Source: Pseudovibrio sp. Alg231-02 (GTDB lineage: Bacteria; Pseudomonadota; Alphaproteobacteria; Rhizobiales; Stappiaceae). From it: a stretch of DNA of 64,000 nt. The notes under the pieces were generated by a model, which ran no database searches, had not been told where the DNA came from, and was given only the letters and a program-made list of their open reading frames with translations. Numbering within the stretch: position 1 is the first letter of the stretch; every line of letters begins with the position of its first letter. The position numbers and the translations under genes were made by a program. The stretch spans positions 248,001 through 312,000 of the forward strand of contig NZ_FREX01000005.1 of assembly GCF_900143565.1 (NCBI RefSeq). Reading direction: 5' to 3'. Below are positions 31,220 through 63,492 of the stretch, in pieces.

Positions 31220-32572
31220 TTAAAAATTTCCACTTCTCATCCGAGATAGTTCTTCGGTCACAAGCTGCATTGGCAGCTCAAAAAAATCAAAAAGTCCATA
31301 AAGCGGTGACAAAAGTGGCTGCACAATCTCCGGCAGATTAGGATCAATAGAGTTTGCATCTATATGTGTGCTTAGTTCAATTGTGTTCTGACGAGCAACT
31401 CTCCTTTGCCGCATCAGCCTTCGACCTTCGATACTAGTCAATGCTCTACCCGCCAAGCCTGAATAAATAGCCGAGAAGCGGATTGTAGCTGTTCCTTCAA
31501 AAAGATTATTTGCTAGTCTCCTAGCATGAAGAAGCGTTTCACCAACCCGCCAAATAGGGAGCGTGACATCAAACGCTGTTGCGGGTGGAAGATCAAGGTC
31601 GTCTCCATCTTCTTGAAACCCTCTCAGCAAAAAAGCAAAGCCTTCAGGACTAACACGCCAATAATCCGAGTGAGCGGGATCGTTGTCTTGAATGCGCATT
31701 TGGGGGTCGCCGCCAAGCCAACATTCAACAGAACCATCTATTGGGTAAGGTTCAATCCCTTCTCTTGTCGGATACCAAAAAGGAGGCCATCCGGTATATC
31801 GCGTCTCGCTTCGCTTTAGCAACTCAGAAAATTGAGCTGGAGTAATATGTCGACGTTCACCGATAATTTCATATGCAAAGCAATAGCTTCCATGCGGAAA
31901 TCGAGGGCCAGAATTTTCTGCCAACGGCTCTACGAGGTGTTCCCATCGCAAGTGACTCGCATTGGTCCACTCTTCAAGAGCAGCAGGCTCTGCCTCACGC
32001 TCTATTTGGGGAACAGCCCCAGTGATCAGATCCCTTATCTGATCGAACATGTCATCACGTCGATTACGCAAGCAACGATCAAGAAGAGCGTCCCATTCCT
32101 GAGCACTCTGAGGTGTTTCACTTCGGGGGCCAGGCTTCCTGACATAGATTGCATTGCTAGTTACGATGTTTCCATGAGGCCCCGCCCGACGAGCGCGGAC
32201 GGGAACGCGATGTCCCCCGGGAACAACCACGATTGGATACAGAGCACCCTCAGGGCTTGGGACAATATGGACGGCGCAATGGAAGGGAGGATCACAGTAA
32301 TTGTGAACGATGCCATTAATTAGGTCTTGGCTATATCCCTCGAAATCAGCAGGACGTCCTTCTGCCTCGACAACACCTGCATCCGTTTCAAGAAGACCTA
32401 AAGCTACAAACCCTCCTCCACTATTGGCGATAGCGAGAATAGCTTTGGCCACAGTAGCCTTATCCTCATTAGACCCTTGCAAATCAAGCCAGTTTTTCAC
32501 CTCAAAGTCAGGGGATTCTCTTGGGTCGACGAGCAAATCCTTTAGTCTCTCACGACTGACCTCAATAACCAT
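31220..32572 (-). CDS. AlbA_2 (Schlafen-type) domain protein
   Basis: The 450-residue protein starts with an AlbA_2 / divergent AAA-4 domain: E-S-P-D-F-E-V-K-N-W-L-D, then KATVAKAILAIANSGGGFVALG, then a V-P-S-P-E-G core. This domain occurs in Schlafen proteins and bacterial nucleic-acid-binding regulators, several of them in defence islands. The C-terminal 270 residues show no catalytic motif I can name. ATG 32572 is used rather than the TTG two codons upstream. The gene stands alone, oriented against the satellite replication genes and between repeats R1A and R2A, suggesting a cargo gene acquired separately. A role in phage defence is inference. Confidence 0.72.
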   Translation of the reverse strand: MVIEVSRERLKDLLVDPRESPDFEVKNWLDLQGSNEDKATVAKAILAIANSGGGFVALGLLETDAGVVEAEGRPADFEGYSQDLINGIVHNYCDPPFHCAVHIVPSPEGALYPIVVVPGGHRVPVRARRAGPHGNIVTSNAIYVRKPGPRSETPQSAQEWDALLDRCLRNRRDDMFDQIRDLITGAVPQIEREAEPAALEEWTNASHLRWEHLVEPLAENSGPRFPHGSYCFAYEIIGERRHITPAQFSELLKRSETRYTGWPPFWYPTREGIEPYPIDGSVECWLGGDPQMRIQDNDPAHSDYWRVSPEGFAFLLRGFQEDGDDLDLPPATAFDVTLPIWRVGETLLHARRLANNLFEGTATIRFSAIYSGLAGRALTSIEGRRLMRQRRVARQNTIELSTHIDANSIDPNLPEIVQPLLSPLYGLFDFFELPMQLVTEELSRMRSGNF

Positions 32573-59698: not shown

Positions 59699-60148
59699 CT
59701 AAGCCTTCCACTCATACAAAATATCGGGCGCGCCTTCTTCATTCTCTGAACCGCTTGTCCGCTTCACTTCCTTAAACCCATGCGCTTCGTAAAATGCTCT
59801 CGCATCCACATTCCTGGCAAAGCACATAAGCTTCAGATTTCCGGAAGAGTGAGCTTTTGCTTGGTTTAAGAGCCTTGTACCAACGCCCTTCCGCAGGTGC
59901 CGCGGATCCAGATAAAGCTGTTCTACCCAGTCATCTTTGGTGGCCATCATACCTATGATTTGCTCATCTCCCATGACTATTGTCAGTTCATTCTCTTTAA
60001 AAACAATATTCTGAAAGAACCAAAGATCTTCTTCTGGTGTGTGCAGTTTAGGTATAAATGAAAGGCATCTGTCTCGCGAATACCGGTACATACGAGCGAC
60101 CTCAGGCAATTCATCATACTGCGCAGCTCTAATTTCAAGTGTCTGCAT
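59699..60148 (-). CDS. GNAT family N-acetyltransferase
   Basis: The 149-residue protein has the GNAT acetyl-CoA loop R-K-G-V-G-T-R-L-L near residue 93, after W-V-E-Q-L-Y-L-D-P, and Y-E-A-H-G-F near the C-terminus. It should transfer an acetyl group to an amine. ATG 60148, four bases after GGGGGG, is preferred to an upstream in-frame start at 60169. The substrate is unknown. Confidence 0.88.
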   Translation of the reverse strand: MQTLEIRAAQYDELPEVARMYRYSRDRCLSFIPKLHTPEEDLWFFQNIVFKENELTIVMGDEQIIGMMATKDDWVEQLYLDPRHLRKGVGTRLLNQAKAHSSGNLKLMCFARNVDARAFYEAHGFKEVKRTSGSENEEGAPDILYEWKA

Positions 60149-60775
60149 ATTCCCCCCATAATTTGGCAAAACCTAGCATAACCTTAGCGTAAAATATCCC
60201 TGCAAACACCAGTAGCACCACATGGCATCCCATGCAGTGGTAGAGTTAGGTTTCCCGAAGATCGGGAGGAGCAAGGCGGCAGGTGGTGCCTGCGCAGTGT
60301 GAGTAAGTTAGTTTCTTCGGCATCAGCTATCGCCTTGCCCGGGCTTTCTTGTAATGAACAACGTCGCCTCTTTTGCCTATAAGGCACGATAGCCGGTTTC
60401 CCGGAAAGAAAGTGGCTTATCCAAACACGTTTCCATGCCCAAACAGTTCCTCCGTCTTTGATAGACACTTTCGCAAAAGCAGGTTTTACTGCCGGTGCTC
60501 GTGTATCTATCACCGCGTGATACCCTATAGTCCTGGGCCCTTCCCCTCAAACCATGCGGTCACGTTTGAAGTTCGGTTCACCGGACCACTGAAAGATGCG
60601 TTACGTCTTCCAACAGCCCAACCCAGCCTACGACAAACTGACGGTCGCTCCGCCAGCAGCCCGCTACGTAGGCATAGACACAGAGTATCGGAGGAATTGA
60701 GGAGGGGGATAAGTTTTGTGACCAGAGCATTCTCATTCTCTCCGAATGAAGCAGTAATCCTCTTTCACCTCTAAC
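60149..60775. other. intergenic stretch with a dispersed repeat
   Basis: No gene is supported between the GNAT gene and the asd terminator. Copy 2 of the RIME-like repeat lies at 60253-60344. The rest shows short inverted stretches and no recognised RNA. Confidence 0.5.
60253..60344 (-). repeat. RIME-like dispersed repeat, copy 2
   Basis: This is the opposite-strand copy of the element at 49921-50016. GCCCGGGCAAGGCGA, GATGCCGAAGAAACTAA and the CCCGATCTTCGGG hairpin are kept. Confidence 0.8.
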
Positions 60776-60803
60776 AAAAAAGGGCACCCTAAAAGGTGCC
60801 CTT
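60776..60803 (-). terminator. terminator of asd
   Basis: AAGGGCACC and GGTGCCCTT pair around a six-base loop, and Ts follow on the minus strand, 27 bases past the stop. Confidence 0.9.
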
Positions 60804-60829
60804 CCTAATCTCATCAGTTGCTGAAAAGC

Positions 60830-61867
60830 TTATGCAGCAGCTTCTGCTTTTGGCTTAATCAGGCCACGGTTCACCAGAACCTCAGCAATCTGAACTGTGT
60901 TCAGCGCAGCGCCTTTACGCAGGTTATCGGAAACAACCCACATGTTCAGGCCGTTCTCAACGGTCGCGTCTTCACGGATACGGGAAACGTAAGTCGCATC
61001 TTCGCCAGCACACTCGTAAGGAGTGACATAGCCGCCGTCTTCGCGCTTATCGACAACCAGAATGCCCGGCGCTTCACGCAGCAGGTCCTGAGCTTCTTCA
61101 GGAGAAAGTGGACTGTCCAGTTCCATATTCACGGACTCGGCATGCCCAACAAACACAGGCACACGAACAGCTGTACAAGTCACTTTGATGGTAGGGTCGA
61201 GCATCTTCTTGGTCTCAGCCAGAACCTTCCACTCTTCCTTAGTGTATCCATCTTCCATGAATTCATCGATGTGCGGGATCACATTAAACGCAATGCGTTT
61301 AGTGAACTGCTGAGGCTCAATCGGGTCGTTTACGAAAACAGCGCGGGTCTGGTTGAACAATTCGTCCATCGCATCTTTACCACCACCGGAAACGGACTGG
61401 TAAGTGGAGACAACGAGGCGCTTGATACCAGCTTTTTCGTGAATTGGCTTAAGAGCAACAACCAGCTGTGCAGTGGAGCAATTCGGGTTCGCGATGATGT
61501 TCTTCTTTTTGAAGTCAACAATATCATCTGCGTTCACTTCAGGCACGATCAGCGGAACATCCTGATCATAGCGCCATGCAGAAGAGTTATCGATGACAAC
61601 ACAGCCCTTGGCAGCAATCTTCGGAGCCCACTCTTTCGCGATGGTACCGCCAGCAGACATGAGGCAGATATCAACATCGGAGAAATCAAAATTCTCCATC
61701 GCTTTAACTTTCAGCGTCTTGTCACCAAAGGAGATTTCTTTGCCCTGCGAACGGCGAGATGCCAATGCAATCACTTCATCAGCTGGGAAACCACGCTCTG
61801 CCAGAATATCCAGCATTTCCGCACCCACATTGCCGGTAGCACCTGCAATCGCAATCTTATAACCCAT
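60830..61867 (-). CDS. asd: aspartate-semialdehyde dehydrogenase
   Basis: The 345-residue protein begins MGYKIAIAGATGNVGAEM, the Rossmann start, and has the catalytic cysteine in N-P-N-C-S-T-A-Q near residue 131, and S-V-S-G-G-G-K-D-A-M. It reduces aspartyl phosphate to aspartate semialdehyde with NADPH, the branch point to lysine, threonine and methionine. Upstream in-frame codons to 62032 are excluded as the family starts at M-G-Y; GAGGAC sits 7 bases before the ATG. A Thr/Met/Lys-rich small frame lies 106 bases upstream. Confidence 0.97.
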   Translation of the reverse strand: MGYKIAIAGATGNVGAEMLDILAERGFPADEVIALASRRSQGKEISFGDKTLKVKAMENFDFSDVDICLMSAGGTIAKEWAPKIAAKGCVVIDNSSAWRYDQDVPLIVPEVNADDIVDFKKKNIIANPNCSTAQLVVALKPIHEKAGIKRLVVSTYQSVSGGGKDAMDELFNQTRAVFVNDPIEPQQFTKRIAFNVIPHIDEFMEDGYTKEEWKVLAETKKMLDPTIKVTCTAVRVPVFVGHAESVNMELDSPLSPEEAQDLLREAPGILVVDKREDGGYVTPYECAGEDATYVSRIREDATVENGLNMWVVSDNLRKGAALNTVQIAEVLVNRGLIKPKAEAAA

Positions 61868-61932
61868 TGGTTTTGTCCTCTTCGTCTCCCCCGCTGGCTT
61901 CCGGAGGCTGACTGCGCCCGGTGAGCCCTCTG

Positions 61933-61957
61933 GCGCCCTCCGTCCCGGGGAGAGCGC
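61933..61957 (-). promoter_or_regulatory. GC-rich hairpin between candidate leader peptide and asd
   Basis: On the minus-strand RNA GCGCUCUCC and GGAGGGCGC pair with one G-U, about 17 bases after the leader stop. No U-run follows, so any attenuation would have to be Rho-dependent or translational. Confidence 0.5.
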
Positions 61958-61973
61958 GGGAAAGAGAGGCACC

Positions 61974-62099
61974 TTAGACGGTGGTCTTTGTCGTTTTCGT
62001 GATGATTGTCTTGGTAGTCGTTTTAAGCGCAACAGAAGCCATGCGCGCGGTCATCGCACGTTTCATGGTTGTCTTCATGTTGGTCATCGCAAACATCAT
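61974..62099 (-). CDS. candidate Thr/Met/Lys/Ile-rich leader peptide of asd
   Basis: A 41-codon frame from ATG 62099 to TAA 61974 runs in the direction of asd and stops 106 bases before its start codon. It begins MMFAMTNMKTTMKRAM and ends in K-T-T-T-K-T-I-I-T-K-T-T-K-T-T-V. It contains 13 Thr, 7 Met, 6 Lys and 2 Ile: 28 of 41 residues are products of the aspartate pathway. This resembles amino-acid biosynthetic leader peptides such as ThrL. The ribosome-binding site is weak (GAAGG is 14 bases upstream; a GTG five codons earlier is an alternative start). A low-complexity chance frame is the alternative. Confidence 0.5.
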   Translation of the reverse strand: MMFAMTNMKTTMKRAMTARMASVALKTTTKTIITKTTKTTV

Positions 62100-62430
62100 G
62101 CTGCTAAACACTACCTTCAAAATTGATCGCGCAGAAACTGCCTATAACCACATCATTTGTCAACAGCATTTTCTAGGCTTGTTGCCAAGGTCGATATATC
62201 TCAAATCAACCCAAGACAAAACCACCGTTTTTGAGAAAAAACCTCATGCTCATCGCAATATTACTGACGTATTCTCAAGAAACAGTGAGGCGGCACGCGA
62301 AATTGCATCATCAGTTTCAAAAGGCAAAAACAACTAAAACTTGCATAAAATATACATACTATCTAAACATTGCTTAAAACAAACTTGAATCTAATTTCGC
62401 AATAAATATTGCATATTTGGGAGAGTAAAC

Positions 62431-62781
62431 ATGAACAAAGCTGGTGGAATTATTTGTCTCATTGCAGGTATTTTTAGTGTCTTCGCAGCAGGAGCGACAC
62501 TCTTCATTGGTGGTGTTGGCGCTGCGCTTGAAGCTGAAGGCGGTGAAACTGTCATTATGTTTGGCTGGGTTGGCCTTCTCATGTCTTTTGTAATTATCAT
62601 TCTTGGAGCAATTGCAATCGGCAAAGCTTCGAAGGTGCTAGGCGGAATTATTGTTTTATCATCAATTGTTGGCGCAGTTGTAGGTGGCACTTTTGTTGCT
62701 ATTTTCATGGTGCTGTCTCTGCTGGGCGGCGTCCTTGTTTTGTTCAGCAAGAAAAAACCTGTAGTCCAGCAAGCAGCTTGA
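62431..62781 (+). CDS. small multi-helix membrane protein
   Basis: The 116-residue protein is almost entirely hydrophobic with about four membrane segments (about 4-24, 43-62, 66-83, 86-104) and a KKKP tail. GGGAGAG lies ten bases before the ATG. The lipoprotein gene follows after nine bases, so they probably form one unit. It resembles small DUF4064-type membrane proteins in layout; function unknown. Confidence 0.7.
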   Translation: MNKAGGIICLIAGIFSVFAAGATLFIGGVGAALEAEGGETVIMFGWVGLLMSFVIIILGAIAIGKASKVLGGIIVLSSIVGAVVGGTFVAIFMVLSLLGGVLVLFSKKKPVVQQAA

Positions 62782-62790
62782 AGATCCACA

Positions 62791-63492
62791 ATGAAGTATT
62801 CTAAAATTATATCAGCTCTGTTTATCGGACTGACTGTAACCGCGTGTAACTATGAAACACAGGTCTCCTTGTATGCGAGTGACTTGACTGAAGACACAGG
62901 AGAAAAGCCAATCTACGCCCCTATCATGTTGATGGGGGAGGGCACATTCTCCCAAAATGATTGTGGCAAAATACGTAACAAAGTCGAACCTTCACTTCAA
63001 AACTACTTTGAGAATGTTGAATTCAAGGGGTGCTCAGATGGTAGCAATTTGGATAACAAAATCTCATTCAGTGCAAGTGCACCAGTTCATGTTGGCTCCG
63101 TTCAAAACGGAATAGCTACGACCGACTTCGACCTGCCATTTGGCGTTCTCATTGCTTACGATCAAAATCTCCCTAACTCAAAATTTATTTTGATCTCTAG
63201 AGGCGACAACTACAGACCGTTTGCAGAAGCTCTCGACAATGCAATGACGGGCTCCAACCTTCTCCAGAATGGTGCAAAAATTACTCTTGAAATCCAAAAT
63301 GACACTCGAGGAGAAATTTCATTCACGAGTACCGGCGTATTTGTGAATGGGGCTGCGATAAGTCGAGAAAACTCTGAAACGTTTCCTCTTCAGCGTCGTG
63401 AGAGTATTCACGTCAAGCTGTCAGATGTCTCCCAACAGTTTATCAAAGACGATGGCTGGGAGCAGATCGGAAGAGTCGATTTTAAAAAATAA
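62791..63492 (+). CDS. hypothetical lipoprotein
   Basis: The 233-residue protein has a lipoprotein signal (KIISALFIGLTVTAC, lipobox cysteine at residue 19) and an otherwise polar, mostly beta-strand body with two conserved-looking cysteines (about 58 and 81). It is probably periplasmic and anchored to a membrane. It lies nine bases after the small membrane-protein gene. No family is recognised. Confidence 0.7.
   Translation: MKYSKIISALFIGLTVTACNYETQVSLYASDLTEDTGEKPIYAPIMLMGEGTFSQNDCGKIRNKVEPSLQNYFENVEFKGCSDGSNLDNKISFSASAPVHVGSVQNGIATTDFDLPFGVLIAYDQNLPNSKFILISRGDNYRPFAEALDNAMTGSNLLQNGAKITLEIQNDTRGEISFTSTGVFVNGAAISRENSETFPLQRRESIHVKLSDVSQQFIKDDGWEQIGRVDFKK

Follow-up and report, generated by a model that had tools for sequence, protein, structure and literature searches.

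The routes to lysine, cell-wall diaminopimelate, methionine and threonine all pass through aspartate-semialdehyde dehydrogenase, the product of asd, and the locus analysed here raises the question of whether its synthesis is governed by a short, threonine-rich frame that precedes the gene. The locus lies in a stretch of 64,000 nucleotides from Pseudovibrio sp. Alg231-02 (the window, to which all positions refer), for which a preliminary description had proposed an aspartate-family leader peptide upstream of asd. The reading that we favour is that of a ribosome-sensed Thr-codon attenuator of asd, probably acting on translation, and we regard this statement as a whole as reasonably probable.

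On the minus strand, the leader frame extends from an ATG at 62099 to a TAA at 61976–61974 (41 codons, translation MMFAMTNMKTTMKRAMTARMASVALKTTTKTIITKTTKTTV and stop) and contains 13 Thr, 7 Met, 6 Lys and 2 Ile, while 106 nt separate its stop from the asd ATG at 61867–61865. The coordinates and counts first given for this frame proved correct, and the GC-rich hairpin placed between it and asd is indeed present, the region 61840–62180 folding at a z of −2.2 relative to 100 shuffles. An in-frame TTG at 62120, 21 nt upstream of the ATG, would yield 48 codons if translation began there. Among the 1857 open frames of the window (at least 20 codons, both strands, stop to stop), the leader carries nine Thr in its last 15 codons as compared to 0–5 in the other 1856. 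The asd product was identified by TIGR01296 (E 6e-142) and NF011456 (E 2.2e-156), its nearest named counterpart being that of Pseudovibrio ascidiaceicola (99% identical). Searches of Pfam and NCBIfam assigned the leader to no family, and no match was found among plasmid records. The leader families of Rfam include the Thr leader; a cmscan of 60100–63000 with the complete Rfam set (E up to 5) returned one weak snoRNA match only and no leader family. The elements on which the analysis is based are the following:

62158–62163, minus strand: TTGACA, putative −35 hexamer for the asd transcript, invariant in nine aligned same-genus regions
61974–62099, minus strand: leader reading frame of 41 codons with its TAA stop, delineated by conservation and by in-frame gaps of 3 and 6 nt among nine same-genus sequences
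61977–62021, minus strand: Thr/Lys codon cluster, the last 15 codons with nine Thr, ending in TTKTTV (codon columns, 87 genomes)
61957–61973, minus strand: arm A, the first 17 nt 3′ of the leader stop, putative partner of arm B or arm C (arm-swap tests, pair counts, folding by ribosome position)
61948–61953, minus strand: C-run UCUCCC, its predicted partner being arm B locally or the G-run close to the ribosome-binding site of asd (conservation, folds)
61932–61947, minus strand: arm B, CGGGACGGAGGGCGCC, predicted to pair with arm A in the state leaving the ribosome-binding site free (near-relative hybrids, covariation)
61875–61892, minus strand: arm C, GGGGGAGA, then AGAGGA (the asd Shine-Dalgarno, 61876–61881), putative partner of the C-run and arm A in the state hiding the ribosome-binding site (G-run conservation; A:C pairs in the folded leader of the window)
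60830–61867, minus strand: asd, 345 aa plus stop, the proposed controlled gene (TIGR01296, NF011456)

The sequence above TTGACA diverges between the nine same-genus regions, and TTGACT occupies the corresponding place in 14 aligned Roseibium-type regions. The occurrence of one or other hexamer upstream in both aligned groups fits a promoter belonging to the leader and asd together, with a −10 box that is not clear. The divergent neighbours of asd (62431–63492, plus strand) are a 116-residue frame with a sub-threshold match to DUF4064 and a second frame with a DUF7424 domain (E 9.5e-26).

Conservation of the leader was assessed with a rule that calls for a frame of at least 10 codons, with its stop 55–210 nt before asd and at least five Thr in its last 12 codons. 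It was applied to four sets of asd upstream regions: the Pseudovibrio/Roseibium family (87 genomes including our own, with one region of 362 nt and one partial asd match); other families of the same order (63 sequences from 64 genomes without G095 and G112, G146 giving two); a Rhizobiaceae-type set of 59 named loci, nearly all titled Rhizobiaceae (L170–L230, leaving out L186, a member of the first family, and L210, without upstream DNA); and other orders of the class (26 of 28 loci tried, no start having been found for two, these being part of the 108/114 matching genomes of the class). In this order, leaders were found in 87/87, 19/63, 57/59 and 2/26, and, when the rule was relaxed to four Thr, in 87/87, 23/63, 59/59 and 3/26. 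Dinucleotide shuffles produced such frames in 0/435, 0/315, 0/295 and 0/130 cases with five Thr and in 13/435, 6/315, 4/295 and 0/130 with four, while in a separate draw of family shuffles 1/435 reached six Thr. On the antisense strands no frame with five Thr was found in the family (0/87), the Rhizobiaceae-type set (0/59), the other families (0/63) or the other orders (0/26), and four Thr were seen in only 1/26 of the other orders. Within the family, the distance from leader stop to asd has a median of 109 nt and a range of 96–146 nt.

Several of the order-wide misses resemble a leader with an extra tail (e.g. TTTTKTKPTAKGGTAG). Three loci from other orders of the class (L233, L234 and L252) possess Thr/Lys-rich frames 109–134 nt before asd (e.g. 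TITTPTTKTKTGITV), which would place the origin of the leader before that of the order or imply several origins. In L097, L116, L134, L146, L148, L237, L240, L243 and L254–L256 no Thr leader was seen and asd follows the end of a leuB-like frame. We take these frame ends to be leuB mostly by recognition: four such tails were compared with NCBIfam, and leuB was matched weakly by two of them (E 0.009 and 0.004, among isocitrate-dehydrogenase relatives and below the cut-off, as one would expect of 48 residues), while the other two gave nothing. Loss of the leuB-asd linkage may accompany gain of the Thr leader. One genus of the family (L084, L085 and L086) has the leader together with a spacer of 129–146 nt that is missing the G-run near the asd Shine-Dalgarno, so that any switch must differ in these genomes; the leader of L186, titled Breoghania, is identical to that of L086.

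The codon columns of the family reveal what has been maintained. Counting from the stop, Thr occurs at codon −2 in 87/87 genomes, at −3 in 85/87, at −6 in 81/87 and at −5 in 70/87, and Lys at −4 in 79/87. Most Thr positions use several Thr codons, all four of which occur at −5 to −9. Pairwise comparison of 40 non-redundant sequences over codons −2 to −9 gave difference rates of 0.13, 0.24 and 0.52 at codon positions 1, 2 and 3, as had been anticipated for a leader in which related genomes keep the type of codon and vary the wobble base; the 18 nt after the stop, taken as triplets, give 0.44, 0.45 and 0.36. Codon −2 is ACC in 85/87 genomes, which indicates an RNA constraint at this position also. 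Comparison thus gives good support to asd having a translated leader rich in Thr and Lys, Thr having been kept with free wobble bases in related genomes; direct evidence of translation comes from S. meliloti (see below). As judged from the same alignments, selection for a Thr/Lys-rich tail right up to the stop, at a fairly fixed distance before asd, has been demonstrated, and we hold with high confidence that a conserved, Thr-sensing leader peptide controls asd. Of the aspartate-family residues originally thought to be sensed, Met and Ile are not supported, since the Met-rich N-terminal half is not conserved in other genera and only the Thr/Lys tail is kept.

The preliminary description knew of no leader peptide for asd, yet one is in print. 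Hadjeras et al. 2023 (PMC10117765), in the passages dealing with SEP5 of S. meliloti, report its translation by Ribo-seq and Western blot and locate it in the 5′ UTR of a gene named ‘aspartate dehydrogenase’. The frame has six Thr and three Lys codons towards its 3′ end, and the authors term it ‘possibly a leader peptide’ and describe it as conserved only in Sinorhizobium. The S. meliloti asd leader (L205) ends in KTTAKTTTKTV followed by the stop, with six Thr and three Lys, and to judge from composition and position SEP5 is almost certainly this frame; an asd leader peptide has, on that identification, already been proposed. In L205 as in the window, the asd 5′ UTR contains a frame that closes with a Thr/Lys cluster, whereas the N-terminal halves are unlike. 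The present analysis differs further in that it finds the leader in every Pseudovibrio/Roseibium family genome examined as well as in other groups, and proposes an alternative-hairpin model where the SEP5 passages give no RNA mechanism (PMC10117765). In our search of the literature on an asd leader, which did not cover the survey of Vitreschak et al. 2004, PMC10117765 was the only description of one, and neither wide conservation nor an RNA switch was found. The earlier interpretation is thus partly supported, being right in kind and wrong with regard to Met/Ile and the absence of a precedent.

Concerning the RNA between leader and asd, the spacer follows a common order: arm A directly after the stop, the C-run, arm B, a variable hairpin, the G-run and the asd Shine-Dalgarno, with the C-run conserved in 86/87 and the G-run in 84/87 family genomes. 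In the window, arm A can pair with arm B (GGUGCC.CUC.UUCCCG with CGGGA.GGAG.GGCGCC) or, in the Shine-Dalgarno region, with arm C (CCUCU with AGAGG), the latter pairing appearing in relatives as CUCGUCC/GGACGAG, CUCAUCC/GGAUGAG and CUCUUUC/GAAAGAG. Structural tests employed 37 of the 40 non-redundant sequences, the three with long spacers and no G-run (L084–L086) having been dropped. When arms were swapped between sequences, the energy changed from −26.8 (own) to −24.6 (swapped) for A:B and from −11.2 to −10.0 for A:C, and 0/2000 permutations were as good in either case, in a test that ignores kinship. As kinship inflates this result, hybrids were also made with the three nearest relatives differing in both arms. 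For A:B, the natural combination was better in 69, worse in 11 and tied in 31 of 111 comparisons; for A:C the corresponding numbers were 46, 40 and 25, giving no support between near relatives, and the A:C part of the permutation result did not survive this control.

Covariation points in the same direction for A:B, 87.3% of whose cells are paired on alignment A1 (0/500 shuffles as high) with a score exceeding that of all 500 shuffles, although with the partner slid by one column 14 cells had both-sided changes, more than the 8 of the structure itself. For A:C, 81.3% of cells are paired and 14 are changed on both sides (reached by 1/500 shuffles), the covariation score is reached by 18/500 shuffles and the number of further pair types by 420/500. 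The longest uninterrupted A:C helix is at least 6 bp in 20 of the 37 sequences, 5 bp in four and at most 4 bp in 13, the last group including many Roseibium with the arm GGACAAGG. A further helix between the codons and the bases after the stop (P1; 90.2% of cells paired) is nearly invariant and minor in folds, and covariation over all column pairs of a MAFFT alignment was too noisy to use. The A:B hairpin is accordingly regarded as a well supported prediction, and A:C as a possible pairing in the window and in about half of the non-redundant set of the family. The consensus fold of the Rhizobiaceae-type set contains a helix of GCUCUCU and the AGAGAGC found where asd starts, each pair being kept in 22–25 of 25 rows and thus so nearly invariant that covariation lends it no support. 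In the Rhizobiaceae spacer (L170–L230), UCUCU and GAGAGA each occur twice around a CCCCGG..CCGGGG hairpin, and several nested pairings are possible.

These elements can be assembled into a model. With plentiful Thr-tRNA, the ribosome would reach the leader stop and cover arm A, so that arm B would fold onto the C-run, and after ribosome release arm A would pair with the G-run/Shine-Dalgarno region (arm C), leaving asd poorly translated. With scarce Thr-tRNA, the ribosome would stall on the Thr codons and arm A would stay exposed, folding onto arm B once the latter is transcribed, whereupon arm C would be free and asd translated. The logic would be that of a classical attenuator in which the terminator is replaced by a structure hiding the ribosome-binding site.

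Folding was performed on the assumption that the leading edge of the ribosome lies 12–13 nt beyond the start of the A-site codon, with the first free base set accordingly (−24 to 0 for a ribosome on Thr codons up to −3, +9/+10 for one at the stop). For RNA extending to arm B, the mean of the 37 sequences was 12.4–13.2 A:B pairs and 2.6–4.1 C-run:B pairs at −24 to 0, versus 3.0–3.4 and 7.1–7.3, respectively, at +9/+10. Ribosome-free RNA of this length forms 11.9 A:B pairs, and an untranslated leader would consequently be ‘on’. The full leader of the window is predicted to form about 12 A:C pairs when ribosome-free. A:B prevails over A:C (13.3 versus 1.5 pairs) when the first free base is −9, which corresponds to about Thr codon −6, and also when it is −6 (9.0 versus 5.4), while at −12, −3 or 0 A:C wins. 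At equilibrium, exposure of the Shine-Dalgarno in the 37 sequences hardly depends on position between −30 and 0 (0.51–0.54) and peaks once the ribosome has reached the stop or moved beyond it (0.64–0.68; the 87 genomes behave alike), which, taken alone, argues for the opposite sign of the switch; as a guide to direction, this measure did not decide. The same ribosome-edge scan revealed no switch in the Rhizobiaceae set. Taking these folds together with the pairing tests, we consider the case for the translational A:B/A:C switch as proposed to be finely balanced, with a slight lean in its favour. We infer both the level of control and its direction, i.e. that Thr shortage would turn asd on, the latter from co-transcriptional folding, analogy with known attenuators and physiological sense.

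The level at which such a leader would act is best approached through its spacer. The lack of a U-run, considered a weak point of the locus at the outset, is confirmed and extends to the whole family: the longest T run is at most 3 in 85/87 family spacers and in 52/59 of the Rhizobiaceae-type. As a family trait this points to control of translation (or to Rho) rather than to an intrinsic terminator, and we consider translation the more likely level and Rho-dependent control possible. The foremost rival is transcriptional attenuation, in which the stalled ribosome would select between hairpins, one of them ending transcription through a terminator without a U-run or through Rho, the latter acting on the C-rich leader when ribosomes do not cover it; in either form we judge it rather unlikely, though deserving of attention. 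The classical leader peptides thrL and trpL act on transcription, which speaks for it. The S. meliloti trp attenuator acts likewise, according to the text of PMC10117765. The last 60 nt of the leader have a Rho-site-like C/G ratio (median 2.04, range 1.15–4.69 in 87 genomes), but a C-rich, G-poor tail is expected from Thr codons anyway. A few spacers are T-rich: in 17/87 some stretch of 8 nt holds 5 or 6 T, though from +35 onwards this is so in only 2/87 (3/59 in the Rhizobiaceae-type set). Apart from the short T runs, this alternative is at odds with the minus strand around the leader, for which no terminator-like site is listed in 60500–63000, and with the conserved elements, which run on as far as the asd Shine-Dalgarno.

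A less probable account, which we would place well behind transcriptional control, is translational coupling or re-initiation, whereby the leader would hold ribosomes close to asd and these, on terminating at the leader stop, would open the asd ribosome-binding site, the Thr run would merely slow them and asd output would be highest with the leader translated to its end. The folds lend this some credence, given that the Shine-Dalgarno is most exposed with the first free base at or beyond +10 (ribosome at the stop), but it explains neither why Thr is kept while the wobble bases vary nor the A:B covariation, and 96–146 nt is long for re-initiation. That the peptide itself is functional, for instance in trans as reported for peTrpL, with asd as a neighbour only, appears very improbable: tagged SEP5 of S. 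meliloti is visible on Western blots in the account of PMC10117765, but only the Thr/Lys tail is kept while N-terminal halves vary between genera, and the position relative to asd is maintained.

The favoured reading, a Thr-codon attenuator acting on translation, invites comparison with known systems. The ThrL attenuator of the enterobacterial thr operon likewise consists of a Thr-rich leader before a Thr-pathway gene and of mutually exclusive hairpins; in contrast, the target here is asd alone, there is no terminator with a U-run and no match to an Rfam leader family, and the codons are Thr/Lys rather than the Thr/Ile of ThrL. The asd leader is perhaps a terminator-free counterpart of ThrL, possibly arisen where asd left the leuB-asd neighbourhood. 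In Actinobacteria, the run of Leu codons in the leader of the LEU element can pair with the leuA Shine-Dalgarno, and the hairpins of translational ileS T-boxes hide the Shine-Dalgarno, as described in the relevant text of PMC1262725; amino acid, gene, phylum and fold are all different from those at asd, and the authors there doubt that the LEU peptide matters. SAM-II and other leader RNAs of alpha-proteobacteria, covered in PMC1273637, are also 5′ leaders from the same class, but are structured RNAs and not codon sensors; the terms ‘asd’ and ‘aspartate’ are absent from that text.

If this reading holds, many alpha-proteobacteria, nodulating rhizobia included, would set asd by the charging of threonyl-tRNA, probably in translation; the micro-frame of S. 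meliloti, which is translated and has had only a suggested role, would gain a testable one. We see even grounds for and against the broadest version, a widespread threonine attenuator in which a Thr-tRNA-sensing leader flips the RNA between freeing and hiding the asd ribosome-binding site and thereby acts on translation, and are equally divided on its corollary that asd is set by threonine (perhaps lysine) charging. The case further shows that composition, position and wobble conservation can reveal leader peptides whose tails are so short that searches at the protein level miss them; SEP5, for instance, was called Sinorhizobium-only in PMC10117765.

A second Thr leader was sought in the same genome by means of the codon patterns TTKTT-G and TTTTT. 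The former occurs at three sites, and only in the asd leader does the run stand at the end of a short frame. For the latter, 20 of 36 sites were read, 10 of them overlapping in one repeat, and at three of the 20 (L266, L269 and L272) a short frame has its Thr run close to the stop; these were rejected as Thr leaders and taken as antisense because longer open frames (542, 265 and 279 codons, respectively) occupy the opposite strand. A run of approximately 17 Thr codons was also observed at L273–L282 (C15, about 32504–32553), in a putative frame starting MLTTTTT..IIITIIL; it represents a simple repeat.
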